A DNA stretch of 64,000 bases from Halococcus saccharolyticus DSM 5350 (GCF_000336915.1 NZ_AOMD01000029.1:62001-126000); one strand, 5' to 3'. Shown: positions 1 through 13,937, counted from the first letter of the stretch. Notes: generated from the sequence alone by a model not told the origin. Made by a program: numbers and translations.

Positions 1-41
1 AGAGGGTTGCAGTTATCAGTATTGGCGGTGTAGGTGTCTAC

Positions 42-329
42 ATGCCTGAAGAAGTCCTGTTCAAATCGGAAAGCGATCAGAGTCAGGAAGAGATCGCAGC
101 ATACCTTCGCCGTGTAGCCGATAAGTTGGAACAAGGGGATGCGATCACACTCAAATCGGGATCCGAGTCCGTGACGATGGAGCCGCCAGCTCGCCCGACG
201 TTCGAGGTCAAAGCCGAGCGTGAGGGACCGACGAATGGGCCCGGTGAATTAAGTATCGAGTTCGAACTCGAATGGGACGAGAACGGCAGTGAGGGAGATG
301 GGGAAGGTGGCCAACTAGAAATCGAGTAA
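42..329 (+). CDS. amphi-Trp domain protein
   Basis: This 95-aa acidic protein fits the haloarchaeal amphi-Trp domain family, whose function is not established. The N-terminus (MPEEVLFKSE) leads into an amphipathic helix at about residues 14-32 (EEIAAYLRRVADKLEQG). Short strands follow, including LSIEFELEW near residue 70, where the family's conserved tryptophan lies, and then a Gly/Glu-rich acidic tail. The length is normal for the family and the ATG at 42 is the only good start. It stands alone, with no operon partner visible. Family assignment is by recognition of the overall pattern, and any role in binding is unknown. Confidence 0.8.
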   Translation: MPEEVLFKSESDQSQEEIAAYLRRVADKLEQGDAITLKSGSESVTMEPPARPTFEVKAEREGPTNGPGELSIEFELEWDENGSEGDGEGGQLEIE

Positions 330-471
330 TCAACTACTGCCCCGTATCTCATGCATACTGCGTGAATTGGCGAAACGGTGTCAGGAAGTGCGTGCGAGGT
401 GTAGTGGGGTATCCTACTGTCCATACAAAAACAACTGCCAGGTACAAGGGACGTGTCCCAGCGGTAGATTA

Positions 472-1218
472 TTACTCGGGAAGGCTTGCACGGATAGAAC
501 GACAGATCGCAGGTTCTAACCCGGTATTCCGATATCCCGCTGCGAGATTGAGATCGATAGCCCAGAATCGGTTTTCCGCATCCCGGACGAAATCGACCCC
601 GAGACCTCGAAGGTCGGTTCGTTCGACGAGACGCTGGAGGCGGGCGGTAAGCCCCGGTCTGGCTCGAGCCTTGCTGAGGAATCGCTTTGGGCCGTACAGT
701 TTCGACGTGACGCGCCTGCCCTCCGTCTGTATGCACTCCCCATCGTTGACGGCATAGTACTTGTAATCGACCGGATTCGTCGGGACGAGTTCTTGATAGA
801 AGTCCCCATCGCCGTTCAGTTCGGGCTCACCATTCCAGATGTAGTAGTCCTTTGCAACGTACTCTCCCGCGGGTTTCTCAAACGTCACTGTGGGGGTATT
901 AAATCCCACTTCCTCAAGCGCTTGCAGACAGATCAGGCGGGAGCTAAACGCTATCGTTGCAGGGAGATTGTTCCACAGAGGTATACCCGTTCTCCGGGCG
1001 TGGTCAAGAGAAGGGAGCGTGACCGGGAAGAATTGCTTGTTGACAAGTAGTGAGAGGTCGTCGAGTTTACTCGACGAGATTTCGGAGCGAGGATCGAAGA
1101 ATCGGACAGCATAACCGGATTCACGAAGGCGGTCGGCGACTGCGGAGAACACTGGCTGATCCGCAGAGCAGAGGATACCGATTCGGTCGGCAGCATTCCG
1201 TGTCATCTCTACTGCCAA
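472..1218 (-). CDS. ATP-grasp domain protein (RimK-like)
   Basis: This 248-aa protein looks like a compact ATP-grasp ligase. An N-terminal Rossmann-like pre-ATP-grasp segment (RIGILCSADQPVF) is followed by a central part with LEEVGFNTPTVTFEKP, typical of the ATP-grasp entry region. The C-terminal piece GLGVDFVRD...FWAIDLN resembles the metal-binding end of the fold, with Asp in place of the more usual Glu before the Asn. Substrate is unknown; relatives join an amino acid to a carboxylate. The start may be the Met at 1218 or the second Met at 1206. It is divergent from the TrkA-C gene, and the palindrome at 1305-1331 lies in the shared promoter region. Confidence 0.7.
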   Translation of the reverse strand: MAVEMTRNAADRIGILCSADQPVFSAVADRLRESGYAVRFFDPRSEISSSKLDDLSLLVNKQFFPVTLPSLDHARRTGIPLWNNLPATIAFSSRLICLQALEEVGFNTPTVTFEKPAGEYVAKDYYIWNGEPELNGDGDFYQELVPTNPVDYKYYAVNDGECIQTEGRRVTSKLYGPKRFLSKARARPGLTARLQRLVERTDLRGLGVDFVRDAENRFWAIDLNLAAGYRNTGLEPAICRSIRASLPE

Positions 1219-1304
1219 ATAGTGTCTGAACCGGATAGCACTTGGCCGTCAGGCTCTGAAACGTGGGGAGAAACCAACAGACGAAATCAGTCAGTGGAAG
1301 GGCG

Positions 1305-1331
1305 TGCGAGATACGCGCCCTGTATCTTGCA
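1305..1331. promoter_or_regulatory. 27-base palindrome between divergent genes
   Basis: The left arm TGCGAGATAC and right arm GTATCTTGCA are complementary except for one G/T position and enclose a 7-base centre (GCGCCCT). A closely related element lies at 2302-2330. The site is between the divergent ATP-grasp gene (start 1218) and the TrkA-C gene (start 1444), so a regulator-binding site is plausible. An insertion remnant is the alternative. Confidence 0.5.
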
Positions 1332-1443
1332 TAGACGCGTCCGATCTGCACATTTCCCGTCAGTAATGGCGTGACCGATGCAGAGCGTGCACTCTCTACG
1401 TGGGGTGGTGAATGTTTACAGATATGGGGATCCACATCTCGGT

Positions 1444-2202
1444 ATGGTTGCCACGTATCCAATACTGTCACTACTGGTCATCTTCGCGCTCTCATTGTTG
1501 ATTGTGCGTATTGGCTCGATCGCGCTGGAGATGACAGGCCTCTCTCCAGATATATCCTCCTTCCAAGCCGCATCAGCATTCTCTGGAGCGGGATACACGA
1601 CCGATGAGGCCGAACGGACTGTCGCCACGACAGGCCGCCGCAAAACTGTGAAGGCGCTCATTCGCCTTGGCAGTATTGGACTCCTCGGTGCGATTTCGTC
1701 GCTTATCCTTTCGTTCACGCGTACTGGTGGCGAAAACCTGTTGAACTTACTGTATATTCTCGGTGGTGCCGGTGTAATCATTCTGTTCGCACGGAGTCAG
1801 TGGTTCAACCGCCTCGTTACGCCACTCATTGAGTGGGGGCTTGGTAAGACGACAGAGTTGGAGGTCACGGATTACGCCCAATTACTCGGGTTGCAGCGCG
1901 AGTATCGTGTAGCGGAGGTGGAAATCAACACGAGTGATTGGCTGGCAGAGAAGACGATCACCGAATTGGATTTACCGAGCGAAGGTGTGTTAATACTCGG
2001 CATCCGCCGAGATGACTCATACATTGGTGCGCCGCAACCAGATGTGGAGACGAAACCGGGGGACACGCTTGTCCTCTACGGGAAACAAGACCGTCTCAAA
2101 GAATTGTCAGACCGTCTCACTGGAGATACAATGGCTCGGGGAGATGCTGTTGAAGACCACGAAGAAACGCTCGAAGAGCAAAAACAGCTCATTGAACAAT
2201 AA
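1444..2202 (+). CDS. membrane protein with C-terminal TrkA-C (RCK) domain
   Basis: The protein has two parts. The first roughly 110 residues hold about three hydrophobic helices (PILSLLVIFALSLLIVRIG; LGSIGLLGAISSLIL; ILGGAGVIILF). The C-terminus is a TrkA-C/RCK-C ligand-binding domain, with EYRVAEVEIN, LAEKTITELDLPSEGVLILGI and PGDTLVLYGKQDRL. RCK-C domains gate potassium or other ion transporters in response to nucleotides. Here the domain is tethered to a small membrane anchor rather than a full channel. The ATG at 1444 begins directly at the first helix; an upstream in-frame ATG at 1378 would add an unlikely hydrophilic extension. The C-terminal tail is charged and Gln-rich. Confidence 0.75.
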   Translation: MVATYPILSLLVIFALSLLIVRIGSIALEMTGLSPDISSFQAASAFSGAGYTTDEAERTVATTGRRKTVKALIRLGSIGLLGAISSLILSFTRTGGENLLNLLYILGGAGVIILFARSQWFNRLVTPLIEWGLGKTTELEVTDYAQLLGLQREYRVAEVEINTSDWLAEKTITELDLPSEGVLILGIRRDDSYIGAPQPDVETKPGDTLVLYGKQDRLKELSDRLTGDTMARGDAVEDHEETLEEQKQLIEQ

Positions 2203-2301
2203 GCACACCCATCGAACGGATATTTCAGCAAATGTATCATAGTAATAGGATTTCAACAGAACCGAGATTCATCGGTCTGTATCGTTATCGTGGCTATCTA
2301 T

Positions 2302-2330
2302 GTGCAAGATACGCGCTTTGTATCTTGCAC
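2302..2330. promoter_or_regulatory. 29-base perfect palindrome in a 347-base gap
   Basis: GTGCAAGATAC and GTATCTTGCAC are perfect 11-base complements around GCGCTTT. This is a second copy of the element at 1305-1331, with the same 7-base spacer length. Half of the motif (GTGCAAGATACG) recurs at 43489-43500. The remainder of the gap 2203-2493 shows no gene. Confidence 0.55.
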
Positions 2331-2493
2331 GCCGATTTCAACAGATACCCAATCTGCGATGTTGGAAAGTACGAAGACTTCAGCGAATCTCTCTAACACC
2401 CCGTCGTCGATATGTATTCGACGTGCAGAAACGACGTTTTGTATGGATGTGAGCGGCTCTTATTCCGATTCTCGATAGAACCATTCCGCTACA

Positions 2494-2549
2494 CTTATCT
2501 GTTTCCGACCGTATATTGGTAGTACGGGGAAGCGCCCCGGAGAACACCT
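2494..2549 (+). promoter_or_regulatory. repeated promoter/leader cassette, copy A
   Basis: First of four homologous cassettes. TATA-like CTTATC at 2494 lies 56 bases before the ATG at 2550. The core has CCGACCGTATATTGGTA and then the small dyad GGGG-AAGCG-CCCC. GGAG, a Shine-Dalgarno match, follows, and the cassette ends in AACACCTATGG across the start codon. From the TATA spacing, transcription should start about 30 bases before the ATG, placing the second dyad in the mRNA leader. Confidence 0.75.
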
Positions 2550-3050
2550 ATGGAACGGAACCAGCCGAACGCGGACGACAGCGAAGAACAGAGCGAAACC
2601 GAACCGTTCGCAGACGCGCCCCTCGATCCCGAGGCTATTCTCGGGACTCGGACCTTCGAGAGCGTGCTGTTCTCGGAGGAACACGCGGAGCGAACGGTGC
2701 CCGTCGACGCCCGAACGGGCGAACGTACCCGGCAGATCGAGGATAGCGTCGAGCGAGCGGAGGCATTTGTCGCTGACGACCCCCGACGAGTCGCCGTCCC
2801 GCAGCGAACGGAGGCGATGGTCGAGACACAGAGCGCGCCTTACGTCTCGACGATATTCTACGATTCCAAGGTTGTACGCGGCAAAATCACCGACAAAGGT
2901 GAGTATGGTCGCCCGACCTTCGCGAACAACGGTCACGACCTGGAATGGACCTACCGAGCAGCTACTCAGTCGGACCAATACGACGTCGAGCTCGTCGAGG
3001 CTGATTACGAGACGGGTGACGTCACGATCACGGTGGAGGAGGTGGCCTAA
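2550..3050 (+). CDS. hypothetical protein of the cassette module
   Basis: This 166-aa acidic protein is not recognised. The first 30 residues are Glu/Asp-rich and probably disordered. The centre has a charged helical part (residues about 50-90), and the C-terminal half looks like a small beta-rich domain (YVSTIFYDSKVVRGKI; DVELVEADYETGDVTITVEEV). No cysteine motif, membrane segment or signal peptide is seen. The start is fixed by the conserved cassette with GGAG eight bases upstream. The next gene begins two bases after the stop, so the two are cotranscribed. Its position at the head of a module with partition genes suggests a plasmid or viral protein. Confidence 0.7.
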   Translation: MERNQPNADDSEEQSETEPFADAPLDPEAILGTRTFESVLFSEEHAERTVPVDARTGERTRQIEDSVERAEAFVADDPRRVAVPQRTEAMVETQSAPYVSTIFYDSKVVRGKITDKGEYGRPTFANNGHDLEWTYRAATQSDQYDVELVEADYETGDVTITVEEVA

Positions 3051-3051
3051 G

Positions 3052-3402
3052 ATGGGTGCAGCGTCGTTTTTCACCAAAGCGTTCGGCAGTGACGCCGACG
3101 AAGCGTTCCGTCGAGCGGTTGAGGAGGCTGAATACCGTCACGGGAAGGCGGGATACACCGGGACGATCGCCGAAAAGCCCGGCTACACCGTGATCCCCAA
3201 CTCGGAGCACAAGAACCGAGACAAGGAGAAATACGCGAACAGCCTCATGGCCGAGCAAGACGACCGGATAGACGACAAGTGGGGGAACGCCGGAGCGATC
3301 AACCTCAGCGGGACGCAGGCGGCCCAGCGCTACCGCAAGCGCAACGGGCTCAAAGGCAATCACGGATCGGTATGGCTGTTCTTCGGAATGGCTAGCTGCT
3401 GA
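3052..3402 (+). CDS. hypothetical protein, haloarchaeal plasmid/virus type
   Basis: This is a 116-aa protein. The N-terminal segment SFFTKAFGSDADEAFRRAVEEAEYRHGKAGYTGTI is split by a Gly-Tyr-Thr-Gly motif. Proteins of this type (a DADEAF...A..YRHG...GYTGTIAEK pattern) are common in haloarchaeal mobile elements, but I know no function for them. The ATG at 3052 follows the stop of the upstream gene by one base, with GGAGG inside the upstream gene at 3037-3041 as ribosome site. The C-terminus is basic (RYRKRNGLKGNH), which may indicate nucleic-acid contact. Confidence 0.65.
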   Translation: MGAASFFTKAFGSDADEAFRRAVEEAEYRHGKAGYTGTIAEKPGYTVIPNSEHKNRDKEKYANSLMAEQDDRIDDKWGNAGAINLSGTQAAQRYRKRNGLKGNHGSVWLFFGMASC

Positions 3403-3465
3403 CGGCTCGCCAATTCGCGGCTTCCGCTCGATCGAGCGATTCCTTCAAAATACCGTTCCGACATA

Positions 3466-3521
3466 TTTATCCGTGCCCGACCGTTTATTGGTAATACGGG
3501 GAAGCGTCCCGGAGAACACCT
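3466..3521 (+). promoter_or_regulatory. repeated promoter/leader cassette, copy B
   Basis: TTTATC at 3466 lies 56 bases before the ATG at 3522, the same spacing as copies A and C. It carries GACCGTTTATTGGTAATACG and then GGGG-AAGCG-TCCC. In the last dyad a C is replaced by T, which keeps a G-U pair in RNA. GGAG and AACACCTATGG follow. Confidence 0.75.
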
Positions 3522-3566
3522 ATGGGACGGATTCAACGCGATACGATCGGTCAGGAGGCTCGATAG
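3522..3566 (+). CDS. 14-codon leader ORF ahead of the next gene
   Basis: The cassette ATG at 3522 opens an ORF that reads MGRIQRDTIGQEAR and stops at 3564-3566. One base later comes the ATG of the 243-aa gene at 3568. The leader ORF contains the Shine-Dalgarno match CAGGAGG (3551-3557), placed correctly for the downstream start. The cassette's start codon is therefore separated from the main gene by a short peptide, suggesting translational coupling or a leader-peptide control. It could instead be a decayed N-terminus. The peptide is too short to assign a function. Confidence 0.45.
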   Translation: MGRIQRDTIGQEAR

Positions 3567-3567
3567 T

Positions 3568-4299
3568 ATGCCCACGAAACCACGGCTCCCCGATGGTTTC
3601 GACCTGCCGACGGCGGTCAACGGGTGGATTCACGACCCGGATGATCGCACGAACGGCCACTGCTGGCAGTACGAGCAGGGCGAGCGACCGCTCGCGATTC
3701 GGGTATTCGAGTCGCTCGGGAACAGCTACGCAGCAGTCACCGACGACCGCACGAGCGGGTTAGAAAGCAAAGAGCGAATCGTCGACCTCGATCATGACGA
3801 TCGCGGGGATCTATCCCACGAGGAGGCCATCGTGACGGCGATTGAGGCCGCGATCGAGTGGATGAACAACTACAGTGAGGGCGAGTGGTCGCACCCACGA
3901 ATCCACGAGGCGGCGTTTCAGCCGCCAGTTGGCTACGAGCTCGCCAGCTACCGGATCAACAGCCGAACGACCACAATCCTGTATCACCAAACCGACGCTC
4001 GCGAAGTCGATCGGCTCGCCGGTGGCAACTTCCCCGACGAGATGAGTGCCGACTCGTGCCCGTATCTGAAAGTCGAGACGTGGGCCGGGAGCGGGAACTC
4101 GACGGTCGCACTCGCCCCTTCGAAGGGTGCTCACGACAATGAGCAGCAGGAGATCGCCGATCCGCCCGAGGAGTGCGGTATCGAGGTTGCACTCACTACC
4201 GCCCGCGAGTTCGCTCGCTCGTTCATCGACGGCGACGACCCGGTTCCCGCCGATCCCACCGGGCAAACCAGTCTCGGTCGGTTTGCCAGCCAGGGATAG
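3568..4299 (+). CDS. hypothetical protein
   Basis: This 243-aa acidic soluble protein is not recognised. It begins MPTKPRLPDGFDLPTAVNGW, contains WQYEQGERPLAIRVFES near residue 35, and has a helical stretch EEAIVTAIEAAIEWMNNY near residue 90. The later part, YRINSRTTTILYHQTD and YLKVETWAGSGNSTVALAPS, suggests beta strands. There are no membrane segments or zinc motifs. The start at 3568 is supported by GGAGG eleven bases upstream inside the leader ORF. It stands as its own transcription unit between two copies of the promoter cassette. Confidence 0.65.
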   Translation: MPTKPRLPDGFDLPTAVNGWIHDPDDRTNGHCWQYEQGERPLAIRVFESLGNSYAAVTDDRTSGLESKERIVDLDHDDRGDLSHEEAIVTAIEAAIEWMNNYSEGEWSHPRIHEAAFQPPVGYELASYRINSRTTTILYHQTDAREVDRLAGGNFPDEMSADSCPYLKVETWAGSGNSTVALAPSKGAHDNEQQEIADPPEECGIEVALTTAREFARSFIDGDDPVPADPTGQTSLGRFASQG

Positions 4300-4331
4300 C
4301 GCCGGAAACGGGTCGTAGTTGAGACGAAGAC

Positions 4332-4387
4332 TTTATCCGTATCCGACCGTATATTGGTAATACGGGGAAGCGCCCCGGTGAACACCT
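4332..4387 (+). promoter_or_regulatory. repeated promoter/leader cassette, copy C
   Basis: This is the best-conserved copy. TTTATC at 4332 is 56 bases from the ATG at 4388. CGTAT-ATTGGTA-ATACG forms a perfect dyad around the predicted transcription start, followed directly by GGGG-AAGCG-CCCC. GGTGA (Shine-Dalgarno) and ACACCT precede ATGG. Confidence 0.8.
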
Positions 4388-5287
4388 ATGGCAACGACAC
4401 AAACCACCTCGGAGCGTGCGAGCTCGCAAGAGAGTGCGAGTGACGAGGACAGCACCGAGACAATCGAGGTCCCCGAACGGTACGCTCGTGAGATCGACGC
4501 CCGCGAGCGCTTGCACAAGGCGTGTCCCGTGGACGTGTATGTAGCCGGGATCAATCCCCGGTATTCGTGGCCGAACCGACTCGTCGCAGCGAATGAAGCC
4601 CGCCCGAGCGTGGCCGACAGCGCCGACTCAGTAATCGTTGATTCCGTGGTCAACGATCCCTACTACGCCGTCGAGGACGTGCTCGACGCGGCTCACAAAC
4701 TCGACGCCGAGTACGTGGTCGGCAAGGATTGGCCGCCCGAATCGGACCCCGCAGGCGAGGGTATCCACGCAGCGGATGCCTACGAGTGGTTCCTCGGCGA
4801 ATACACGAGTCACGAGTGCGAGGCCGACGTGATCGTGCCGATCGCACCGCCGTTCGACTCGGGGAGTCTGAATTGTCTCTCGAAAGTGGACCACTTCGCG
4901 CTCGGCGGGATGCGTGACATGAGCGGCGAGCAGCAGGTTACTCACATTCGGGACTTTCGCAGGGTCGCAGGCTACGACGTCGACGTTCACGGCCTGGGTG
5001 TCGGGACGTCCGCCGAGCTCATCGGAGCGATCCGCGAGTCCGTCGAGGACGATCCTGAGAAGCCACTGCTCGACAGTTTCGATATTTCGACGCCGGAGAA
5101 CGCCGTCAGCAAGGGCAAAATCCCGGATAAGTCGTGGCAGCAACACCGCGTATCGTTCCCCACGGGTGAGGATTCGACGACCATGCGCGCGGGGTTCGCC
5201 GAGTCGATCGCGCGGATGCTTGAGTACGAGCTCTCGCCGGGTTGTGACGACGAAATACTAAAGCAGGCGGGCTTCGCGACGTTCTGA
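4388..5287 (+). CDS. TGT-like base-exchange enzyme (DpdA-like candidate)
   Basis: The 299-aa protein keeps the tRNA-guanine transglycosylase barrel signatures. SVIVDS (Asp85) matches the TDSGG strand. FALGGM (170-175) matches the ALGGLAVGE loop, HGLGVGTSAELIGAI (201-215) matches MGVGTPEDL, and LLDSFDIST (227-235) matches the DMFDCVLPTR strand with the nucleophilic aspartate. The CXCXXC zinc site of true TGTs is absent, and a 30-residue acidic tail precedes the barrel. TGT-fold enzymes swap guanine for a 7-deazaguanine, in tRNA or, for DpdA, in DNA. Its place in a plasmid-like module with a ParB-fold gene favours DNA as substrate, but that is inference. No other 7-deazapurine gene is seen nearby. 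Confidence 0.7.
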   Translation: MATTQTTSERASSQESASDEDSTETIEVPERYAREIDARERLHKACPVDVYVAGINPRYSWPNRLVAANEARPSVADSADSVIVDSVVNDPYYAVEDVLDAAHKLDAEYVVGKDWPPESDPAGEGIHAADAYEWFLGEYTSHECEADVIVPIAPPFDSGSLNCLSKVDHFALGGMRDMSGEQQVTHIRDFRRVAGYDVDVHGLGVGTSAELIGAIRESVEDDPEKPLLDSFDISTPENAVSKGKIPDKSWQQHRVSFPTGEDSTTMRAGFAESIARMLEYELSPGCDDEILKQAGFATF

Positions 5288-5340
5288 CAGGCGAATGTCG
5301 ATCCCCTGACCGGATCGACGGCAAGGGTAGGCCGACAGTT

Positions 5341-5393
5341 TTTTACCGGATTCCCCCGTATATTGGTAGCGTAGTCGATTCAGGTGAACACCT
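5341..5393 (+). promoter_or_regulatory. repeated promoter/leader cassette, copy D (divergent)
   Basis: It keeps TTTTACCGG, CCCCGTATATTGGTA and the end AGGTGAACACCTATGG, but the second dyad is replaced by unrelated sequence (GCGTAGTCGATTC). The TATA-to-ATG distance is about four bases shorter than in copies A-C. It shows which parts are dispensable. Confidence 0.65.
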
Positions 5394-6530
5394 ATGGTAC
5401 AATCAGGAATCCAGACCATGAGCACAGAACCAGAGCAGCAGGAGCAAGAACCGCTACCGATCCAGCACGTTCAGACCGTTGAGGTCCGGCAGAAAACGGG
5501 AACGGACGAATACCGAGCCACCATCACGGAGGCGGTGAAAGCCGCCGGACTCGACGAGGGTGCAACGTTCCAGTTCAAGCCTCACGAGATCGAGGAGCTC
5601 GGCGTGATCCCGGCACTCGGGGCGGCGGCAGACGAGGACGCCCCGCGTGACCGGTACACTCGAACGGCGACGACCGACGGAAAAGCCTCAATTCGGATCG
5701 CACTGCCGAAGGAGGTGGTCGAAGCGCTTGAATCCCATACCGAGGGCGAGCACGACGAGGAGCATCCGCTGGTAATCGACGTGTTTGCGGGCGAGCGGAT
5801 GATCGCTCTCGCCCCCGCCGGGGGGTTCGACGTTCCGATCGAGGCGCTACCCGAGGACCCCGATCGTGTCGTTGACGACAGTCGCGACGTCCTTCGGCTT
5901 ACACCCGTCCAGACGGCCCGACCGCGTGTGAGGGGATCGGATGAAGACGGGCAGAGTCGTATGACCGTGCTGACGGCGACGACGGCGATTCGGGCAGCCG
6001 GACTCGCCTCGGAGGTTGACGACCCACACTCAGTGAGCTACCACCCCGAGGCCGCCGAGTCACTCGGGGGACTCATCCCAGCAGTCGGCTATCGGCGACA
6101 AGCCGGTGCCGCGGATCCTGAGTATGCGGTCTATCGCGAACATGGACGTGGGGATGATGTACCGTATGAGGGGTATTCGGTGACTCTTCCCGCTGAAATG
6201 GTTGAGGCTCTTGGTATCTCGGTCGATGAGCTTGAGGGGCTCAGTCGACGCGAGCGGCCTGAGATCACCGTCTATGCAGCGGAGGGGATGCTCGGGTTCA
6301 AGACGCCGATCGTCCGCAAAATTCCGGTTGAGCGCGACCGAACGAGCGAGCTCACCGACGTTGCTGGGATCGGCGAGGCTGTCGCCGATCGGCTTCGTGA
6401 GCGCGGCTACAGCTCACCCGAGGACCTGGTAGGAATCACTCGCGAGGAGTTGCTCGAGATCGAGGGCCTGTCATCGACTCGTGTCGATAGAGTTCTCGAC
6501 GACCTCAGTGCGCGCTCAGGAGAATCATGA
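5394..6530 (+). CDS. helix-hairpin-helix DNA-binding protein with two repeat domains
   Basis: The 378-aa protein has an internal duplication and a C-terminal HhH domain. Both halves carry an AbrB-like pattern (IRIALPKEVVEAL near residue 100; YSVTLPAEMVEALGI near 262), each preceded by a conserved 'A.R.AGL' helix and 'E.LG.IPA.G' segment. The last 60 residues (TDVAGIGEAVADRLRERGY; LLEIEGLSSTRVDRVLDDL) are two helix-hairpin-helix motifs, which bind DNA non-specifically. The start is fixed by cassette D. Its stop overlaps the next start (ATGA). It probably binds DNA for the element; the precise role is unknown. Confidence 0.7.
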   Translation: MVQSGIQTMSTEPEQQEQEPLPIQHVQTVEVRQKTGTDEYRATITEAVKAAGLDEGATFQFKPHEIEELGVIPALGAAADEDAPRDRYTRTATTDGKASIRIALPKEVVEALESHTEGEHDEEHPLVIDVFAGERMIALAPAGGFDVPIEALPEDPDRVVDDSRDVLRLTPVQTARPRVRGSDEDGQSRMTVLTATTAIRAAGLASEVDDPHSVSYHPEAAESLGGLIPAVGYRRQAGAADPEYAVYREHGRGDDVPYEGYSVTLPAEMVEALGISVDELEGLSRRERPEITVYAAEGMLGFKTPIVRKIPVERDRTSELTDVAGIGEAVADRLRERGYSSPEDLVGITREELLEIEGLSSTRVDRVLDDLSARSGES

Positions 6531-6880
6531 TGTCCTCGCAGAACGGATCAGCACCGCCGAAACCGGAGTCGGTCGAAGAAATCGTCCGTGGGTACGCACC
6601 GCCCGGCCAGCCGTGGCCGACACTTCCGGCCTTTCACTCCGAGTCAGGGTGGTCGTTCAGTACGGTTCACCGGCGCACCTGTCCGAGTCGGGAGGGGGAG
6701 ACCCAACTTTGCCCGAGCACTGGTGAGGAGGTTCCCCTCACGGAGCCGCACATCTGTATCACAGCCCGTCGCGACGAGTGGCCTGATTCACCAAGCTCGA
6801 CAGCGGAGTTCAAACAGTTCGTCTTTCGGACGCGAGACGAGCTCAGGCAGTGGTTCGAGGAAGACGCCGAGGGCACGTAA
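6527..6880 (+). CDS. hypothetical protein with paired cysteines
   Basis: This 117-aa protein overlaps the HhH gene by four bases (ATGA), so it is translationally coupled. It contains CPSREGETQLCPSTGEE at about residues 52-68 and a later HICI, giving three cysteines and a histidine that could bind a metal. The C-terminal part (FKQFVFRTRDELRQWFEED) is a charged helix. The gene is not recognised. The following ParB-fold gene starts two bases after its stop, making a three-gene operon with the HhH protein. Confidence 0.6.
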   Translation: MMSSQNGSAPPKPESVEEIVRGYAPPGQPWPTLPAFHSESGWSFSTVHRRTCPSREGETQLCPSTGEEVPLTEPHICITARRDEWPDSPSSTAEFKQFVFRTRDELRQWFEEDAEGT

Positions 6881-6882
6881 CG

Positions 6883-7578
6883 ATGGCAAAAGACCCGTTC
6901 TACTACCAACTCGACGCGGATTTCAGAGGTACGTACGTTCGCGTTCCCACTTCGGAGCACACCTATGAAGGGTGGGCGCGCGAGTGGCATTACGATCAAC
7001 ACGCGATCCTGCTGTACGACGCAGTTCGCGACGACGGGGAGAAAGTCGGCCCGGTCACGATCAACGAACCCGAGACGGTCGAGCGGATTGAGTCAGGCGG
7101 CCCCATCCGAGAGATCGCCGTTGATGCGATCGCCCCCTCACCGTACAACGCTCGCGAATACGACAACCCGGATCACCAGCAGTTCGTGAAGCAGACGCGC
7201 GAGCGCGGCCACCTGTTGACGTTTCCAGCAGTGCGACCGCTTTCGGAGGACGAGTACGAGACGGTCGGCGGTCACAAGCGGATGGAAGCCGCCCGTCGCG
7301 CCGAGCTCGACGAGATTGCCGTGCGCGTGCTGGACCTCGACAGATGGGAAGCAGCCCGGAAGTTCGTCGACGAGCATATCCCGATCGAGGGTGGCGACGA
7401 GCGCGGAATGTACGGCCAAGAGGAGATCGACCACGCGATTGCCCGCCTTCGTGAAGCGTGGTCCGACGAGCGGCTTCGGAGGCTCACGCCGCTCACCCCG
7501 TACTTGGAGGAGAAACTCGCGTCGACGCGCTCGGAAGCGCTGCGTCAGGGCTACCTTGCAGGTCACGAGGCCGATTGA
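6883..7578 (+). CDS. ParB/sulfiredoxin-fold protein
   Basis: The 231-aa protein has an N-terminal beta-rich domain (residues 1-60, YVRVPTSEHTYEGW) and then a ParB N-terminal domain. The ParB part shows VDAIAPSPYNARE (80-92), the conserved box VGGHKRMEAARRA (128-140) that binds nucleotide in ParB, and VRVLDLDRWEAARKF. A helical C-terminus follows but no clear HTH. It may be a partition protein for the ParA at 8343, or a DpdB/DndB-like partner of the TGT-like enzyme at 4388; both are inference. The ATG at 6883 follows the upstream stop by two bases. Confidence 0.75.
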   Translation: MAKDPFYYQLDADFRGTYVRVPTSEHTYEGWAREWHYDQHAILLYDAVRDDGEKVGPVTINEPETVERIESGGPIREIAVDAIAPSPYNAREYDNPDHQQFVKQTRERGHLLTFPAVRPLSEDEYETVGGHKRMEAARRAELDEIAVRVLDLDRWEAARKFVDEHIPIEGGDERGMYGQEEIDHAIARLREAWSDERLRRLTPLTPYLEEKLASTRSEALRQGYLAGHEAD

Positions 7579-7620
7579 GACGTTGCTTGGACGGTCGGCT
7601 GTATTGATGTACGCTCATCT

Positions 7621-7906
7621 CTATGAGTCGTCACCCAGCAGCATTTTGAACCAGTCCTCGGCAGCGTTCAGCTGAAGGCCGAGGAAGTCAAGATGGCCCT
7701 GAAGATGGTGTTTTGAAACCCCTCGAAACTTCCCGAGCTATTGCCCCACGAAGCCGTGGCGGTTCTCGCACGTGTTCACGTGCGCGTCGCCGATCACGTA
7801 CGTCTCGGGGTGATTGACGGCCAGGGGTGTTCGGGGTGCGCTCGTTCTCCCAAACCTCATCACAATCCACGGTTAACGTCTCTTCGAACAGGTTTCCGAG
7901 TTTCAT
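7621..7906 (-). pseudogene. ISXO2-like (IS1595) transposase remnant
   Basis: The minus strand reads VIGDAHVNTCENRHGFVGQ, then a TAG where the family has Trp, then LGKFRGVSKHHLQGHLDFLG and a C-terminal LQLNAAEDWFKMLLGDDS before the stop at 7621-7623. This is the C-terminal part of an ISXO2-like DDE transposase. Upstream, TLTVDCDEVWENERTP is in another frame, so at least one frameshift and one nonsense mutation have killed it. No terminal repeats were identified. It separates the ParB-fold operon from the ParA gene. Confidence 0.8.
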
Positions 7907-7953
7907 GGACAGAGCTCGCTACGACCTGCTCGTTTCTCAAACCACCTCAACAG

Positions 7954-8100
7954 TGCCTGTTGGGCGGGCTGTTCGCGACGATCGCGCTTGTGTTGATCCT
8001 GATAGGCGTGAGTCCCACGTCGTCGCGGATCTATCTGGCTCTAGGGCTCATCGCACTCGCGATCAGCGGCTACTTCCAGCTCACTCATCCCGTTCACTAA
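7954..8100 (+). pseudogene. fragment of a two-helix membrane protein
   Basis: An open frame ending at 8100 reads CLLGGLFATIALVLILIG and then a second hydrophobic helix (YLALGLIALAISGYFQL) before the stop. This is a convincing membrane hairpin, but no start codon or upstream domain matches it, and the frame runs back into the transposase remnant. It is probably the tail of a gene truncated by the IS insertion. Confidence 0.35.
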
Positions 8101-8213
8101 GAGTCGCCTAATCGGGTGATAATCCGGGTTATGGCAGCCGCATAGCAGCTTTTCTTTCGAGCAGTGTTGAGGGCCGAAGACAGAGGAGGAGTACCGATAC
8201 CTGCGACACCATC

Positions 8214-8267
8214 TGTAGATGCTACACCTGCTGTAGATGCTTCCCTGTCTGTAGAGGTGAGAGCAGC
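8214..8267 (+). repeat. three 18-base direct repeats upstream of parA
   Basis: CTGTAGATGCT starts at 8214, CTGTAGATGCT at 8232 and CTGTAGAGGTG at 8250, so the repeats are spaced exactly 18 bases apart. A weaker match (11 of 18) occupies 8196-8213. Iterated sites beside a parA gene are the usual form of a partition centromere, an autoregulatory operator or a replication iteron. Which of these applies cannot be decided from sequence alone. Confidence 0.6.
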
Positions 8268-8342
8268 TATACAACCCAAAAACTATAACGGATGCGAGAG
8301 ATGCTGTACCCGTGCCCTGATCCACCGGGGTAACGGAGAATA

Positions 8343-9194
8343 ATGACACCTATGGAAAACGGAGAATCGCGGGCAATCGCGATCGCGAACAATAAGGGCG
8401 GTGTCGGAAAGACGTCAATCTCGATCAACCTCGCCGATCGGCTCGCGAAGCGAGGACACGACGTACTCGTAATCGACACCGACCCCTCCGGTAATCTAAC
8501 CGAGGGAGTCGGGCTCAAGGACGCTTTTCAGAATGGGACTCATTTCGGGCAATTCCTCGATGACGACGAGGACGAAGACGTAGGGTTCAGCGATATAATC
8601 GTGCCCGGAGAGGAAACCGGACTCCCGTTTGACGTAATGCCTTCACACGAGGATTTAGCTCACTACCAGACCCGGATCGACAGCAAGCGAATGTCGATGA
8701 CCTGGATGGACGAGCAAATCGTTCAGCCGCTACTTGAGCAGGTGTACGATTTCATCGTGATCGACACCGAGGCATCCCCGGATTCACTGTGGATGGATTC
8801 GGCGATCTACGCTGCCGGAAACGTGATCGTGCCGCTCGACGACGGTGGAGAAAGTGTGAGCGGCTTCGAGATGCTGCGGGACCGGCAGATTGATCCGATT
8901 CGGAAGCACCGAGACGTCGATATTCTCGCCCTAGTCCCCAACGAGACGTCGAACAACAACGAACTACGAGAACTCATCGAGATCTTAGAGGAGCAGTACC
9001 CGGAATACACGCCCTCCTTTGCCCGTATAGAGCGGTTCGATGATAGTGTCGGCCCCGGCATTCGTGATCGCATCCAGATCAAACGAGCGTGGAAAGACGG
9101 GATTCCACTCTCAGAGTACGAGCCCGACCACGAGATGATCGAGCGGTTCGACGTTCTCGCCGATATTGCCGAGCGGGGTGGTGTCGATGGGTAA
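8343..9194 (+). CDS. parA: ParA-family partition ATPase
   Basis: The 283-aa protein has the deviant Walker A box NNKGGVGKTS (residues 17-26), the A' strand VLVIDTDPSGNLTEG, and the Walker B-type strand DFIVIDTEASPDS near residue 139. ParA ATPases move plasmid or chromosome copies by oscillating on DNA with a centromere-binding partner. No N-terminal HTH is present, so any autoregulation would need the partner. The start is 8343 (GGAG four bases before) or the in-frame ATG at 8352, which matches the CACCTATGG end of the promoter cassettes. Its stop overlaps the next start by eight bases. Confidence 0.9.
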   Translation: MTPMENGESRAIAIANNKGGVGKTSISINLADRLAKRGHDVLVIDTDPSGNLTEGVGLKDAFQNGTHFGQFLDDDEDEDVGFSDIIVPGEETGLPFDVMPSHEDLAHYQTRIDSKRMSMTWMDEQIVQPLLEQVYDFIVIDTEASPDSLWMDSAIYAAGNVIVPLDDGGESVSGFEMLRDRQIDPIRKHRDVDILALVPNETSNNNELRELIEILEEQYPEYTPSFARIERFDDSVGPGIRDRIQIKRAWKDGIPLSEYEPDHEMIERFDVLADIAERGGVDG

Positions 9195-9681
9195 CAGTCG
9201 AATTGACGAGCTCAACGAACTCGATAATAAGGGTGACGAGGGATCGGCGTCGGAGCCAGAACCGGAACCGGAACCGGACGAATCCGAGGAGCAGGATGCA
9301 GCGCCAGAGACGGAAGTGGAACCCGACGAGCAACCATCCGAAGACGCGGACTCAGAGCCCATGAGCACATCTACCGAAGACGAAAGTAACGACGAGGCTG
9401 AGAGCGAATCCACCCCGGTCGAGGAAAGCAAACCAGCGTATTCCGGCGATGATTTTGATCGGGAAACCTTGTATTGTCTTCAAGAGACGTCTGAGCGGTA
9501 CAAGGACGCGATGGATCGGTACGACGTGCTCGTGATGCGCAACGAGATCGGGCTTCGCAACGTCACTCAGCGCGAGCGTCAAGAAGCCATGATGCGTATG
9601 GCGGCGGACCATCCCGAAGTGATTGCTGAATACATCGTTGAGATGCGTGGACTCGACGTCGACGTGCCAGATAGCCCGTAG
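9187..9681 (+). CDS. acidic protein coupled to ParA
   Basis: The 164-aa protein begins inside the parA stop region (eight-base overlap), so the two are translated together. Residues 1-85 are almost entirely acidic and low-complexity (EPEPEPEPDESEEQ). The C-terminal 75 residues are helical and more basic (ETSERYKDAMDRYDVL; NVTQRERQEAMMRMAADHP). In many partition operons the gene after parA encodes the centromere-binding protein, so this is a candidate for that role with the 18-base repeats as target. No named domain is recognised. Confidence 0.65.
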   Translation: MGNSRIDELNELDNKGDEGSASEPEPEPEPDESEEQDAAPETEVEPDEQPSEDADSEPMSTSTEDESNDEAESESTPVEESKPAYSGDDFDRETLYCLQETSERYKDAMDRYDVLVMRNEIGLRNVTQRERQEAMMRMAADHPEVIAEYIVEMRGLDVDVPDSP

Positions 9682-9826
9682 TTCTCACTTTTCGGTTGTT
9701 GGAGATGGTTGACGCGAGCTGCTTGGAGCAATAGGTAGGAACGGGAGAGTCAGAAGGGGCGCTAATATATCATAACTGTGACGAGATTCCGATAGACTTA
9801 CGCCCTGTATTTCTGACGGGTTTCGC

Positions 9827-10237
9827 ATGGTCGACGGCTTCACACTCGGAGTGCTCGCGATCGCGGTCGTTGCCCTGGTTTTCGCGCGGCAGATACTCGG
9901 GTCGCTCAAAATGCTTGCAGCGAACGCGGTCGGCGGCGTTCTCACGATCATGGTCGCCAGTTGGTTCGGCTTTGGTGTTGCGCTCACCCCCACGACGCTG
10001 CTGATTACCGCCCTCGCAGGCGTTCCCGGCGCGATACTGGTTCTGTTGCTCGCCTACGGCGGGGTCGCGTTCGTCCCGCCGGGTGCCGGAGAAGCAGGGA
10101 GTATCCTCGTCGATCAAGCGGCTCAGAATCTCGATCGGCTTCTCAGTGCGTTCGGTGAGGTCGTCGACTTTGTGGACGAGAGTAGTAGCAGTAACGGGAC
10201 CGCTGTTCCGACGACCGAAGGGCCATCGCCCGGATAA
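9827..10237 (+). CDS. BofA-family membrane protein
   Basis: This 136-aa membrane protein has about three hydrophobic helices: FTLGVLAIAVVALVFA, then GGVLTIMVASWFGFGVAL, then LLITALAGVPGAILVLLLAYG. The segment LKMLAANAVGG...PTTLLITALAGVPGAILVLL is the pattern of the pro-sigmaK processing inhibitor BofA family, which is also present in archaea, where its role is unknown since they have no sigmaK. The C-terminus is soluble and acidic. It is a single gene. Confidence 0.75.
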   Translation: MVDGFTLGVLAIAVVALVFARQILGSLKMLAANAVGGVLTIMVASWFGFGVALTPTTLLITALAGVPGAILVLLLAYGGVAFVPPGAGEAGSILVDQAAQNLDRLLSAFGEVVDFVDESSSSNGTAVPTTEGPSPG

Positions 10238-10300
10238 TTCCCGGCGAGACGGCCAATAGAGCCGTTGATTATAAGTGGCTGACCGGAGTCGCTGTTTTCG

Positions 10301-10468
10301 ATGGCAGATTTGATCGTTCAAGCCGCCGTGAAGGAGGAACTCGGGGAACTGAACGTCGCGTCGGACCTCTACGATGCGCTCGATGACGAGGTGAGTGAAC
10401 TGCTGGAGGACGCGAGTCGACGCGCCGAAGAGAACGATCGAAAGACCGTCCAACCCCGCGATCTGTAG
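10301..10468 (+). CDS. DUF1931 small histone-fold-like protein
   Basis: This 55-aa gene reads MADLIVQAAVKEELGELNVA and continues with a helix (DLYDALDDEVSELLEDASRR) and the end NDRKTVQPRDL. The last piece, 'A..N.RKTV.PRDL', is the signature of the histone fold, and the whole matches the small DUF1931 family of haloarchaea. Such proteins are thought to bind DNA or stabilise a partner. It lies close to another chromatin gene (MC1 at 11581). The length is usual for haloarchaeal members. Confidence 0.8.
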   Translation: MADLIVQAAVKEELGELNVASDLYDALDDEVSELLEDASRRAEENDRKTVQPRDL

Positions 10469-10569
10469 CGGCGACTCTTTTCGGTTTCACCACCGCCATG
10501 AGCGGTGTGACATAGTAGATATGGCCGACAGTATTATGATGTTATTGTCTCACCTATCAAACGGCCATG

Positions 10570-10860
10570 ATGGAAGATCTGACCGCATTCCAGCGGGATT
10601 TACTGTACGTGACAGCAGGATTGGAAAACGAATCGGCTCCGCATGGACTCGCGATCAAAGAAAGGATGGACCAGGACTATTCGGGAGAGATCAACCACGG
10701 ACGGCTCTACCCGAACCTCGATGAACTCGTCGAGAAGGGACTCCTCGAAAAAGGAACCATCGACAACCGAACGAACTCTTACAGCGTCACTAATCGCGGC
10801 CGTCGTGAGGTACAAGCGCGTCGTGAATGGGAAAACCAGCACGTTTCTGTCGAGGAGTGA
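10570..10860 (+). CDS. PadR-family transcriptional regulator
   Basis: This 96-aa winged-helix protein is a short PadR regulator. FQRDLLYVTAGLENESAPHG leads into the DNA-recognition segment (AIKERMDQDYSGEINHGRLY), then PNLDELVEKGLLEKGTID and the wing (SYSVTNRGRREVQ). PadR proteins repress genes in response to ligands; the target is not evident. Start at 10570, or one codon earlier at 10567. No coiled-coil dimerisation extension is present, as usual for the haloarchaeal short form. It lies alone among small DNA-binding proteins. Confidence 0.85.
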   Translation: MEDLTAFQRDLLYVTAGLENESAPHGLAIKERMDQDYSGEINHGRLYPNLDELVEKGLLEKGTIDNRTNSYSVTNRGRREVQARREWENQHVSVEE

Positions 10861-10977
10861 GTCTTTCGATGCTCCCTGCTCCAGTCTGGCGATCGCGATC
10901 CACACTTTTGGCTGGGCTCTACAGAGAGTTCCAGTGCAACAGCAATTTCGTATTGCCCGCCGTAAAGGCGTAGTGTA

Positions 10978-11481
10978 ATGGTTGAGATTCCCGACCAGCT
11001 GTCGTGTCTGTTCAGTGCGTCAGTCGACCAGTCTGGTGACTCCTACAGGATCGAGATTCCCCGGTCCGAACTCGATCAGGGAATAATCACCCCTGGCGAA
11101 ACCTACCGCGTAGCGATCGTCTCGAGTACTCCTCAATCTGACGATGGTGTGACTCGACGGCAACCGGATACTACTTCGTCGTCAGAGTCGGGTTCGAGTG
11201 ACTCCAGCCAACAGTCACCACCGGTCGAACCGGGCGACATCCGCGAGGTGACGATCGACTCACTTGGTGATCAAGGCGACGGAATCGCGAAAATCGACCG
11301 AGGGTATGTCGTGATCGTGCCTGGGACGCGCCCGGACGATGAGGTGACCATCGAGATCGAACAGGCCAAGGAAAACGTGGCGTTCGCGCGGGTTCGCGAC
11401 GAGATGTCGGGTACCGCTGACTCCGGAACGGACGATTTCGACGATTCGTTCGCCGAAGAGACACTCGGCGAACCCGAGTGA
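10978..11481 (+). CDS. TRAM-domain protein
   Basis: This 167-aa protein has a C-terminal TRAM domain, a small beta-barrel that binds RNA. REVTIDSLGDQGDGIAKID, GYVVIVPGTRPDDEVTIEI and ENVAFARV (residues about 85-140) match the TRAM repeat found in RNA-modifying enzymes. The N-terminal 50 residues (LSCLFSASVDQSGDSYRIEI) are a small beta segment, and a Ser/Asp/Gln-rich linker joins the parts. Free-standing TRAM proteins are abundant in haloarchaea and are proposed to act as cold-shock-type RNA chaperones. The role here is inferred from the domain only. Confidence 0.85.
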   Translation: MVEIPDQLSCLFSASVDQSGDSYRIEIPRSELDQGIITPGETYRVAIVSSTPQSDDGVTRRQPDTTSSSESGSSDSSQQSPPVEPGDIREVTIDSLGDQGDGIAKIDRGYVVIVPGTRPDDEVTIEIEQAKENVAFARVRDEMSGTADSGTDDFDDSFAEETLGEPE

Positions 11482-11580
11482 AATCTTTGACGTTCGACCA
11501 CTCCACTGAGGAAACCCCATTACTGCAGGGGATACTCTTATCCTACTCTCGTTGATGGATACGCTTGGAGGGGCCAAACC

Positions 11581-11895
11581 ATGGCAAGAGAGGTGGATGA
11601 CGAGCGGAACTTCGCACTGCGCGAGGAGAGTGGTGAGGAAACCAGCGTGTTCACGGGGAAAATGCCTCACCAAGCAGCGTTGAAGGCTGCCCGAAAACTC
11701 GACCCCAGCGAAAGCGAGGACGCAGCACCCAGAGAGGAGTTCCGCCTCCGCGAACGGGGGACGCACAAACTTCACATCTACGAGGGGTGGGCGTGGCGTG
11801 AGGACGCTCCCAACGACGGTCCAGAGTGGATGCCCGAAACGATCACAGAAGCGAACGTCTCGAAACAACGAATCGAACACCTCGAAGAACTGTAG
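11581..11895 (+). CDS. MC1-family non-histone chromosomal protein
   Basis: The 104-aa protein matches archaeal MC1, a monomeric protein that bends and compacts DNA. The key segments are RNFALREESGEETSVFTGK (10-28), PHQAALKAARKLDP (30-43), and a fold-closing region with RGTHKLHIYEGWAW (59-72) and EANVSKQRIEHL. The conserved aromatic and basic residues of the DNA-bending arm (YEGWAW) are present. The length is normal for the family. The transcript is probably leadered, since 'GGAGGGG' precedes the ATG by about ten bases. Confidence 0.9.
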   Translation: MAREVDDERNFALREESGEETSVFTGKMPHQAALKAARKLDPSESEDAAPREEFRLRERGTHKLHIYEGWAWREDAPNDGPEWMPETITEANVSKQRIEHLEEL

Positions 11896-11945
11896 CAGCA
11901 CCGCTGTCTGACACAGATTCATAGTCGTCGAGTCAAACCCCGTGT

Positions 11946-12185
11946 ATGGACCGAGAACGGCGGCTCCCGCCGTTCGCTGACGATGCCCTCACTGTCCTGA
12001 CTGAGGCGGTCGGCGACAGAGACAGCGAGAGTGATGGCCTCCCGAAAGACGAGGCCAAAGCACTGCTTGCCGACGACGACCGATTTAGCGAGTCCGATGC
12101 CGCCCACGCGCTCGACATGCTTGACAATCGTGGTCGTATCTACTACGTCGATGATCGCGTTCGGATTACGCCGACTGAGAAGTAA
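11946..12185 (+). CDS. small winged-helix-like protein
   Basis: This 79-aa acidic protein has a helix (DDALTVLTEAVGD), then GLPKDEAKALLADD, SESDAAHALDMLDNRGRIYYVDD and RVRITPTE. This helix-helix-wing order is that of a minimal winged HTH. No family name can be given with confidence. It follows the MC1 gene on the same strand but with its own upstream region. Likely real because the codon use and acidity match its neighbours. Confidence 0.6.
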   Translation: MDRERRLPPFADDALTVLTEAVGDRDSESDGLPKDEAKALLADDDRFSESDAAHALDMLDNRGRIYYVDDRVRITPTEK

Positions 12186-12331
12186 CTCGAAAGGGACATC
12201 GCCCGCGGCTTCGTCCGTCGGTTTCACTTTCACTGCTGTAGGGAAGTCCCTATAACAGTCGGATGGATACTCGGGAGTGAGGGCGGAACGGCCCGACCTC
12301 ACCAGAGCGCGTCACACGCTCTTTCCCCGCT

Positions 12332-12487
12332 ATGATACAGACAGTAAGACAAATCCTCTCGCAGTCGACGCAAATCTCTCTCATCGAATGCCGTGACTGC
12401 GGCGCGAGCGTCAAGCCCGACACTGAATCCTGTCCGAATTGCGAATCGAGCGAGATTGCTCACTATACCATCGGTCCAGGAGACTGA
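12332..12487 (+). CDS. 51-aa zinc-ribbon protein
   Basis: The short frame reads MIQTVRQILSQSTQISLIEC and continues with a Cys4 zinc ribbon: ECRDCGASV then SCPNCESSEIAHYTI. This rubrerythrin-like 'CRDCG...CPNCGS.EI..Y.I' pattern is a very common small haloarchaeal protein. The function is unknown; it probably binds zinc and may contact a larger protein or nucleic acid. It is coded between longer genes with no partner. Confidence 0.7.
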   Translation: MIQTVRQILSQSTQISLIECRDCGASVKPDTESCPNCESSEIAHYTIGPGD

Positions 12488-12631
12488 TCGACTGGCTCAC
12501 TCGCCAGTACTGTGGTGCTCTTCACATCGACGAGTCGCCAAGAGCAGAACACACCACAACGACGGGATTGTCACTCAAACTCCGGTGTGTGGCCCACGGT
12601 TGTTTTCAGGTAGGCTCTCCGAGGAGATGGT

Positions 12632-13627
12632 ATGGCGATTCCGTTCGATGCGACGTGGGGAACGCTCTGCGAGCGCTGTGAGGACCTTCCCGACGATGCG
12701 ACGCTCATCACGCCGTTGGCGTCGAGGCGCTTTCAGATCACCGACGTCCAAGAGCCACGGATCATCATCGAGGACGTCGATTCGGGTGACTCACAACCGT
12801 TGGATCGCGAGCAGTTCGAAGCGCTCGCCGAGCACACCCACGAGGCACTGAATGGCTACGAGCTCGACCGACTCCCACCGAAGGCCGAACCCTACGCGGC
12901 GGTGCTCGCACTCCACCCACGGTACGTGCTCGACGAGCGCGAAGGGACGCTGACCGAACTGGATGAGGTCGACGAGAGCGCGGTGCTAGACGACGCGCCG
13001 CACCTCTCGATGAGTGAGGAGAGCGAGTCCGAAGAGCGCGAGGAGCCGGATATCGACGTCTATGCGGACATGCTGTTGTTGATCGACGCGCTCGAACGCG
13101 AGGACCTCACGGCTCTCGACGCGGTAGAGACACCGGCGCTGGTGAACCTATACACGCTGCTGTCGGATGTACAGCGCAACGCAAACGACCTCCGGCAGGA
13201 CGTGACCGACATACTACTCACCCGCGTCCAACACGACCGACCAGCACATGGCCAGTACGGCTCGGTCCAGCGGACGACGCGCCAGAATCGCTCGCTGAAA
13301 GACGACGAGAAAGTGCTCGAAGCGTTCGAGGGAACGGGGATCGATCGCGAACAGTTGGTAGGTGTCGATCGTGGGAAGGTCGACGAAGCGCTGGAAGTGG
13401 TTTCTGTGCCGGAGTCGGCCGTGTACGACGTCTCTGAAAGTGAGTACGTCCGGAAGGCCGACGTCGACGAAGAACGCAAGGAGACGCGGTTGCAGGGGCT
13501 GAAAGACCGGCTGGCGGTAAGTGACGATCCCGAGGCGGAGGTACTGCGCCAGGAGATCGACCGGCTAGAACAGGAGATCGAGGATCTGACGGAGTTCTCG
13601 CCAGGGAGTGCGTTTGGTGAGAGCTGA
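12632..13627 (+). CDS. hypothetical protein with C-terminal coiled coil
   Basis: The 331-aa very acidic protein is unrecognised. The N-terminus has CERCEDLP (residues 13-20), which could be half a metal site, followed by a beta-rich domain (TLITPLASRRFQITDVQEPRIIIED is its core, shown by position only). The middle (150-260) is helical. The C-terminus has DEERKETRLQGLKDRL and a Glu-rich coiled coil ending at residue 320. A GGAG precedes the ATG by five bases. A frameshifted copy of residues about 250-290 lies at 34411-34533, so this gene family has been duplicated within the replicon. Confidence 0.65.
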   Translation: MAIPFDATWGTLCERCEDLPDDATLITPLASRRFQITDVQEPRIIIEDVDSGDSQPLDREQFEALAEHTHEALNGYELDRLPPKAEPYAAVLALHPRYVLDEREGTLTELDEVDESAVLDDAPHLSMSEESESEEREEPDIDVYADMLLLIDALEREDLTALDAVETPALVNLYTLLSDVQRNANDLRQDVTDILLTRVQHDRPAHGQYGSVQRTTRQNRSLKDDEKVLEAFEGTGIDREQLVGVDRGKVDEALEVVSVPESAVYDVSESEYVRKADVDEERKETRLQGLKDRLAVSDDPEAEVLRQEIDRLEQEIEDLTEFSPGSAFGES

Positions 13628-13658
13628 CAGAAGCTGATTTGCTGGCCACCAGTATGGG

Positions 13659-13850
13659 ATGAGAGCAATGAGTATGACCGCTATCTTGAAACAGGGATGC
13701 CGATTCGGGTGGCACGATTACGAGCCAGAGGGGACCACGACAGAGGACCGATTCGGAATCACACCCCGGGAACAACCGCCTCAGATGGTCTGGGTGTGTA
13801 CTCGGTGTGGGGATGAGAAGTGGCTTGAGCCGGGTGTCTGGCCGAGTTGA
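13659..13850 (+). CDS. small putative zinc-binding protein
   Basis: The frame encodes up to 63 aa and may start at 13659, 13668 or 13674. It contains GCRFGWHDYEP near the N-terminus, which supplies Cys and His, and VWVCTRCGDEKWLEPG near the end, which supplies CxxC. The C..H..C..C arrangement suggests one zinc site. It resembles other tiny haloarchaeal zinc fingers but has no assigned function. Confidence 0.5.
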   Translation: MRAMSMTAILKQGCRFGWHDYEPEGTTTEDRFGITPREQPPQMVWVCTRCGDEKWLEPGVWPS

Positions 13851-13937
13851 TCCATTCACTCAGACGGAGAAGTGCGACTGCTTCTCCACAAAGTATATAC
13901 CGTTTATGGCCATTGTATTGAAATATCGGTGTGTGAT

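Follow-up and report, generated by a model that had tools for sequence, protein, structure and literature searches.

The gene at positions 4388-5287 of a 64,000-nucleotide stretch of the Halococcus saccharolyticus DSM 5350 genome (NZ_AOMD01000029.1:62001-126000, on contig C29 and here called the window) likely encodes a DpdA-like DNA base-exchange enzyme, with the fold of the tRNA-guanine transglycosylases (TGTs). Our interpretation of the locus as a whole, which we hold to be probably right, is that this is a small archaeal DpdA-type DNA-guanine transglycosylase carried by a conjugative-type plasmid, that it shares a leader sequence with a gene for an ArdC-like anti-restriction protein, and that it serves in masking the DNA of the element. 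The enzyme class is known already, including in a halovirus, and what is new, as far as our searches show, is the plasmid setting, the linkage to a DpdC-domain protein without DpdB, and the leader shared with ArdC. The features that carry the interpretation are as follows, with contig coordinates for those upstream of the window.

4388-5287, + strand: putative DpdA-like TGT-fold base-exchange enzyme, 299 amino acids (aa), intact open frame
4332-4391, + strand: shared leader before the DpdA-like gene, 60 bp
C29:57043-57717: DUF6884 gene of the element (PF21818, E 3e-29), in an operon preceded by the leader
C29:58664-59587: ArdC-like anti-restriction protein with ArdcN and peptidase domains, under the leader

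The preliminary description of this DNA recognised TGT barrel signatures in the 4388 gene, and all three are present in the protein (ALGGM at residues 171-175, HGLGVGT at 201-207 and LLDSFD at 227-232). There is no usable match to it in the Pfam, PHROGs, NCBIfam or PADLOC profile libraries, the Pfam TGT family included, and phmmer found nothing among the PDB sequences. An AlphaFold model built on an alignment of nine relatives (pTM 0.72, mean pLDDT 72) has its strands and helices in barrel order, and its top PDB matches by Foldseek and VIA-align are TGTs and DpdA. The comparison with DpdA and archaeal TgtA that had been proposed as a check bears out the fold, with VIA-align Z scores of 13.9 for Z. 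mobilis TGT, 13.9 for P. horikoshii arcTGT and 13.8 for the Salmonella-type DpdA 7ui4, and all of the VIA-align rows listed belong to the TGT superfamily. The best matches to the model in BFVD include viral models named queuine tRNA-ribosyltransferase. The absence of the tRNA-type zinc site, also claimed earlier, holds as well: Cys286 is the sole cysteine in the C-terminal part of the protein, and no CxCxxC of the CxCxxC...H site of tRNA TGTs is conserved across the enzyme family.

Within the superfamily the details point to DpdA. When all PDB sequences were searched with a family profile made from an alignment of 27 relatives, the one chain matched was DpdA 7ui4 (E 0.27), over a span that takes in the motifs GG, VHxLG and SxDxxTP; hhalign against single sequences gave E 1.9e-4 (probability 48%) for phage 9g DpdA and E 1.2e-3 for the arcTGT of the host. 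Asp85, Asp114, Gly173, His201, Ser230 and Asp232 are invariant among the 27 relatives. DpdA has a conserved histidine at position 196 that is absent from DpdA2 (PMC6884629); in phage 9g this is the histidine of VHGFG, and it aligns with His201. With the DpdA proteins of phages 9g and CAjan and of Salmonella Montevideo (7ui4) the enzyme shares the TGT-type barrel, an Asp-Ser after strand 2, the GG motif, the VHGxG histidine and an SxDxS/T motif with the candidate nucleophile. It is of 299 aa, as against 317 for phage 9g DpdA and 436 for 7ui4, and differs from them in having no recognisable preQ0 genes alongside and in being unmatched by any library profile. With archaeal arcTGT (TgtA) it shares the fold, but it is much shorter (the host arcTGT has 500 aa), lacks the zinc site and has another nucleophile motif.

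The catalytic pair was earlier given as Asp85 and Asp229. Asp85 stands, as it is invariant and at the end of a strand in the model, as expected. Asp229, however, is replaced by Gln or Glu in 6 of the 27 relatives and in the model sits before strand 230-234, whereas Asp232, which is invariant, falls opposite the Asp of the motif SID in 7ui4 and SCD in phage 9g. In the hhalign alignment to the host arcTGT, a single sequence, it is Asp229 that stands opposite the arcTGT nucleophile, but we give this less weight because conservation, the place relative to the strand and the two alignments to DpdA all speak for Asp232. We therefore reject Asp229 as nucleophile, and judged by alignment and model Asp232 appears the better candidate.

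The partner that recurs with the enzyme is a protein with the domain DUF6884 (PF21818). Clustering of neighbours placed it beside the DpdA-like gene in eleven loci, and it lies within 10 kb of the enzyme gene in 9 of the 27 genomes (G000, G045, G156, G186, G298, G303, G351, G365 and G374), and also in five related virus contigs. With the virus contigs included, the linkage is found in about four lineages on the tree, and the chance of at least 4 linkages in 27 is about 8e-5, given about 1.5 DUF6884 copies per genome and assuming independence. DUF6884 is the Pfam domain of dpdC (PMC11888242), and Pfam relates it to YaaA; DpdC is given as DUF328/PF03883, with hydrolysis of dPreQ0 as its activity, in PMC12839542. 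Of the motifs CxxxK and LSAxxG, the protein of the element retains Cys and Lys in the first and LSA in the second. On this comparative evidence the DUF6884 protein, and not the ParB-fold protein proposed before, is the supported partner. The bacterial Dpd islands (dpdA-K) have in common with the element a DpdA-like and a DpdC-domain protein, but the element has no DpdB (DndB), no scanned neighbour is one of the dpdD-K restriction genes, and its DpdA-like and DUF6884 genes, both under the shared leader, are separated by 9 kb. In G045, G156, G298, G303 and G374 the DpdA-like gene is followed by a tandem pair of DUF6884 genes. A second DUF6884 gene, at G000:C25:267286-267759 (L088:5287-5760), is placed divergently next to genes that look like type I restriction-modification genes.

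The shared leader, of about 60 bp, consists of a TTTAT box, the palindrome CCGTATATTGGTAATACGG, a GC-rich hairpin, GGTGA and the start codon. There are 13 matches to it in the genome, all within C29:51166-66391. Nine other genomes of the genus have none. If degenerate copies are counted, 19 start codons, including that of the enzyme, are preceded by the leader or its 3' part. Among the genes that it precedes are those of the DUF6884 operon (57043), those for a SWIM zinc-finger protein and the ArdC-like protein, the gene at 2550, and, with a degenerate copy, that for a helix-hairpin-helix (HHH) protein. The further copies within the window, and the 2550 gene, are these.

2495-2553, + strand: second window copy of the leader, before gene 2550-3050
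2550-3050, + strand: 166-aa protein under the leader, no family found in Pfam, PHROGs, NCBIfam or PADLOC
3466-3525, + strand: third copy of the leader in the window, upstream of the gene at 3568-4299
5342-5396, + strand: degenerate copy of the leader, before the HHH gene

Upstream of the window, C29:60347-60859 encodes a 170-aa protein with a degenerate leader that resembles the N-terminal part of the HHH protein, and it is a candidate regulator acting at the leader palindrome. No RNA families were found in positions 1-14000 of the window, and no tRNA genes in the window. At two other loci, L041 (four copies) and L039 (two copies), the region upstream of the DpdA-like gene is repeated before other start codons of the same element, the repeated sequence being unrelated to the window leader.

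With regard to the nature of the element, the contig carries genes for type IV secretion system (T4SS) ATPases, VirB4/TraG-like and TrwB-like, at C29:21222-29161. ArdC relatives are found on 1357 plasmid records, many of them conjugative. In pHLAC01 the ardC leader recurs before genes for SWIM and TFB proteins, and in pHTUR03 before other genes. In the bacterial plasmid pLS20 repeated sequences before ardC and four other operons define an establishment regulon (PMC8708921). The likeness is that in both cases a number of operons, that of ardC among them, have upstream repeats reaching to their start region, in one block of a conjugative-type element; the differences are that the leader is archaeal, is of 60 bp as against 420-750 bp with no sequence relation shown, and that the block includes a DNA base-exchange enzyme. 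By this analogy the leader block is probably an archaeal establishment regulon, and a place for the enzyme in an anti-restriction establishment regulon is plausible, the case for and against being about evenly balanced. The word establishment is used as an analogy because the element has no identified origin of transfer (oriT), relaxase or leading strand. The repeated leaders with GC-rich hairpins before ardC and its neighbours are at L101:9491-15000 and L099:7357-15000 (pHLAC01, pHTUR03), and TFB and TBP genes are also part of the pHLAC01 ardC cluster, a hint that the element may have transcription of its own.

The mechanism that we suggest is that Asp232 would attack C1' of deoxyguanosine in DNA, with guanine leaving, and that host-supplied preQ0 or a close 7-deazaguanine would be inserted by the enzyme without ATP. 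The DUF6884 protein would then probably act on the nitrile of the base that has been inserted and convert it, to the amide for example. The enzyme would be expressed from the shared leader together with the ArdC-type protein and other small genes, and with such co-expression its probable role is in masking the DNA of the element from restriction on establishment in a new cell. What is observed is the fold, the family relation, the invariant catalytic residues, the linkage to DUF6884, the shared leaders and the ArdC and T4SS genes; the DNA substrate, the base, the reaction of the DUF6884 protein, and the timing and anti-restriction purpose of the regulon are inferred.

For the precursor, the preliminary description looked to the host archaeosine pathway, and this is plausible but needs qualification. 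A whole-genome search with PF01702 found two loci only, both on contig C12, for the host TgtA and a second TGT-family protein, and the host encodes a YhhQ-type transporter. However QueC was not recognised in the host genome, so that salvage of preQ0 is more likely than its synthesis, although the host may have a QueC that escaped recognition. A strong partial or full match to QueC is present in 4 of 10 genomes across the genus; most genomes have no recognisable QueC although the host has TgtA. We do not count QueD as proof of a host preQ0 pathway, as the only PTPS match (C9:2552) is not beside queC or queE.

The enzyme gene had been described as part of a module with the two genes that follow it, of which the ParB-fold protein was likened to DpdB. 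The genes concerned, and that upstream, are as follows.

3568-4299, + strand: 243-aa protein directly upstream of the enzyme gene, no confident family match
5394-6530, + strand: HHH protein, 378 aa, with a MazE/AbrB-like part and a C-terminal HHH
6850-7578, + strand: ParB_N-domain protein, 242 aa, ParB_N only with no DndB/DpdB domain
8343-9194, + strand: ParA-family ATPase, natural partner of a ParB-fold protein, 0.8 kb downstream of the ParB gene

The HHH and ParB genes are real, but they do not form a conserved unit with the enzyme gene. Among 39 neighbourhood loci of the enzyme family (37 related neighbourhoods once duplicates are removed), none has a ParB homologue and 2 have an HHH homologue, and we drop the HHH protein as a conserved partner; it is possibly a regulator. 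DndB, the DpdB domain, is in none of the 27 enzyme-carrying genomes, and with ParB_N as the only domain of the ParB protein the analogy to DpdB fails. The ParA gene 0.8 kb downstream indicates an ordinary partition role for the ParB protein, which probably functions in plasmid partition or regulation. Phages, too, are not known to have DpdB. It had also been said that the architecture differs from that of the bacterial Dpd islands, and this is so, the element having a DpdA-like, zinc-less enzyme without DpdB.

There are four other explanations to be considered. A Dpd-type restriction-modification module, in which the ParB protein would be the DpdB ATPase, the HHH protein would bind DNA and self DNA would be marked for a cognate nuclease, would fit the position of the ParB_N and HHH genes directly downstream of the enzyme gene, but given the lack of conservation of either neighbour, the adjoining ParA gene, the absence of DndB, and no match to dpdD-K among the proteins scanned around the enzyme gene, we regard it as most improbable. 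That the enzyme is a paralogue acting on tRNA is very unlikely: it has the TGT fold, and TGTs tie as top structural matches, but the zinc site is absent, the protein is far shorter than the 500-aa host arcTGT, the DpdA-type histidine and SxDxxTP motif are present, the family is found on plasmids and in viruses and is linked to the DpdC domain, and TgtA and a further TGT-family protein are already present in the host.

The enzyme could also act on DNA with the same fold but insert another base, or merely remove guanine. This draws on the usual Gln being Ala153 or Leu in the window clade and on the failure to find QueC in the host, but catalytic and DpdA-diagnostic residues are retained, as is the Gln in most of the family, and in several lineages there is linkage to DUF6884, the domain found in DpdC, which processes dPreQ0, so we think this rather unlikely. 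Also unlikely is that a DpdA-like enzyme marks the DNA of a stable plasmid constitutively as self, with no connection to transfer, the leader being no more than a common promoter type of the element. The leader does show ordinary archaeal promoter features, and no oriT or relaxase was identified, although neither was searched for; against this, all of its copies fall in a single block of about 16 kb, in which ArdC is also encoded, the contig has genes for T4SS ATPases, and repeated leaders occur with ardC on other haloarchaeal plasmids.

Several points weigh against the DpdA-type, anti-restriction interpretation that we prefer. The profile match to 7ui4 (E 0.27) is weak taken alone. The position that is Gln in 23 of the 27 relatives is Ala153 in the enzyme and Leu in the Natronococcus jeotgali relative, and so the choice of base may have changed in this clade. 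No data from biochemistry or mass spectrometry were found for any protein of the haloarchaeal family, and the failure to recognise QueC counts here too. The distance from the enzyme gene up to the DUF6884 gene is 9 kb, and the latter lies outside the window, about 4.3 kb before its start. No relaxase, oriT or leading strand was identified, relaxase and oriT not having been searched for. Lastly, the sequence upstream of the DpdA-like gene recurs in 3 of 29 relatives as against 7 of 120 control genes, with no clear excess, and we do not propose that leader repeats are general in the family.

The family was matched in 28 of 391 genomes sampled in the class, window genome included (about 7%), with homologues on four haloarchaeal plasmids and also among virus contigs that are HRTV-29-like. 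Closest to the enzyme are the proteins of Halobacteriales archaeon YIM A00010 (68% identity) and Natronococcus jeotgali, and the other 17 genomes of the host's family have no homologue. The distribution thus appears patchy, as for mobile genes. A search of viral contigs found no relatives of the window clade; the 27-relative profile is too diverse for such a scan, two distant family members used in it found none either, and two others found the HRTV-29-like contigs.

The HRTV-29 homologue (28% identity, E 1e-5) is annotated as DpdA. HRTV-29 (genus Dpdavirus) and its DpdA have been published, with no preQ0 genes of its own and use of host preQ0 proposed (PMC8651126), so that to call the enzyme itself undescribed, as was done at the outset, is too strong. 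The two are of the same family and both lack their own preQ0 genes; they differ in that HRTV-29 DpdA is viral and not plasmid-borne and retains the Gln replaced in the window copy. In HRTV-29 the DUF6884 gene is directly upstream of that for DpdA and overlaps its start. It is gp32 (L004:7529-7930; DUF6884, E 3e-31), annotated as peroxide stress protein YaaA, and the domain and position suggest that it is better read as a DNA-modification partner.

More tentatively, and here we are inclined to doubt more than to propose, 7-deazaguanine DNA could be an establishment-stage anti-restriction weapon of archaeal plasmids, in which a leader regulon delivers a minimal DpdA (without DpdB and without preQ0 genes), a DpdC-domain protein and ArdC, with salvaged preQ0 as substrate. 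So far 7-deazaguanine DNA is known from phages and bacterial islands, and if true this would extend it to archaeal plasmid transfer, with minimal DpdA spread over haloarchaeal plasmids and chromosomes, and the leader shared with ArdC would parallel bacterial establishment regulons in archaea. In halovirus HVTV-1 7-deazaguanines were found although no DpdA is encoded, and a host enzyme was suggested (PMC6884629); the haloarchaeal DpdA family could help to explain this. From the linkage to DUF6884 comes a concrete partner protein, and it points to DNA modification as the function of the so-called YaaA peroxide gene of HRTV-29.

There are some minor observations on the neighbourhoods. In L006, L040, L042, L050 and L057 a protein of 239-286 aa without Pfam match is encoded immediately before the DpdA-like gene, in most cases abutting or overlapping the start of that gene. 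From its look the protein may bind DNA through a winged helix, and it is possibly a targeting subunit or regulator. Regulators of the PadR family are encoded repeatedly in the vicinity of DpdA-like genes, at window 10567-10860 and in seven loci. The same element also encodes a 1424-aa Eco57I/MmeI-type restriction-modification methylase, at window positions 14898-19172.

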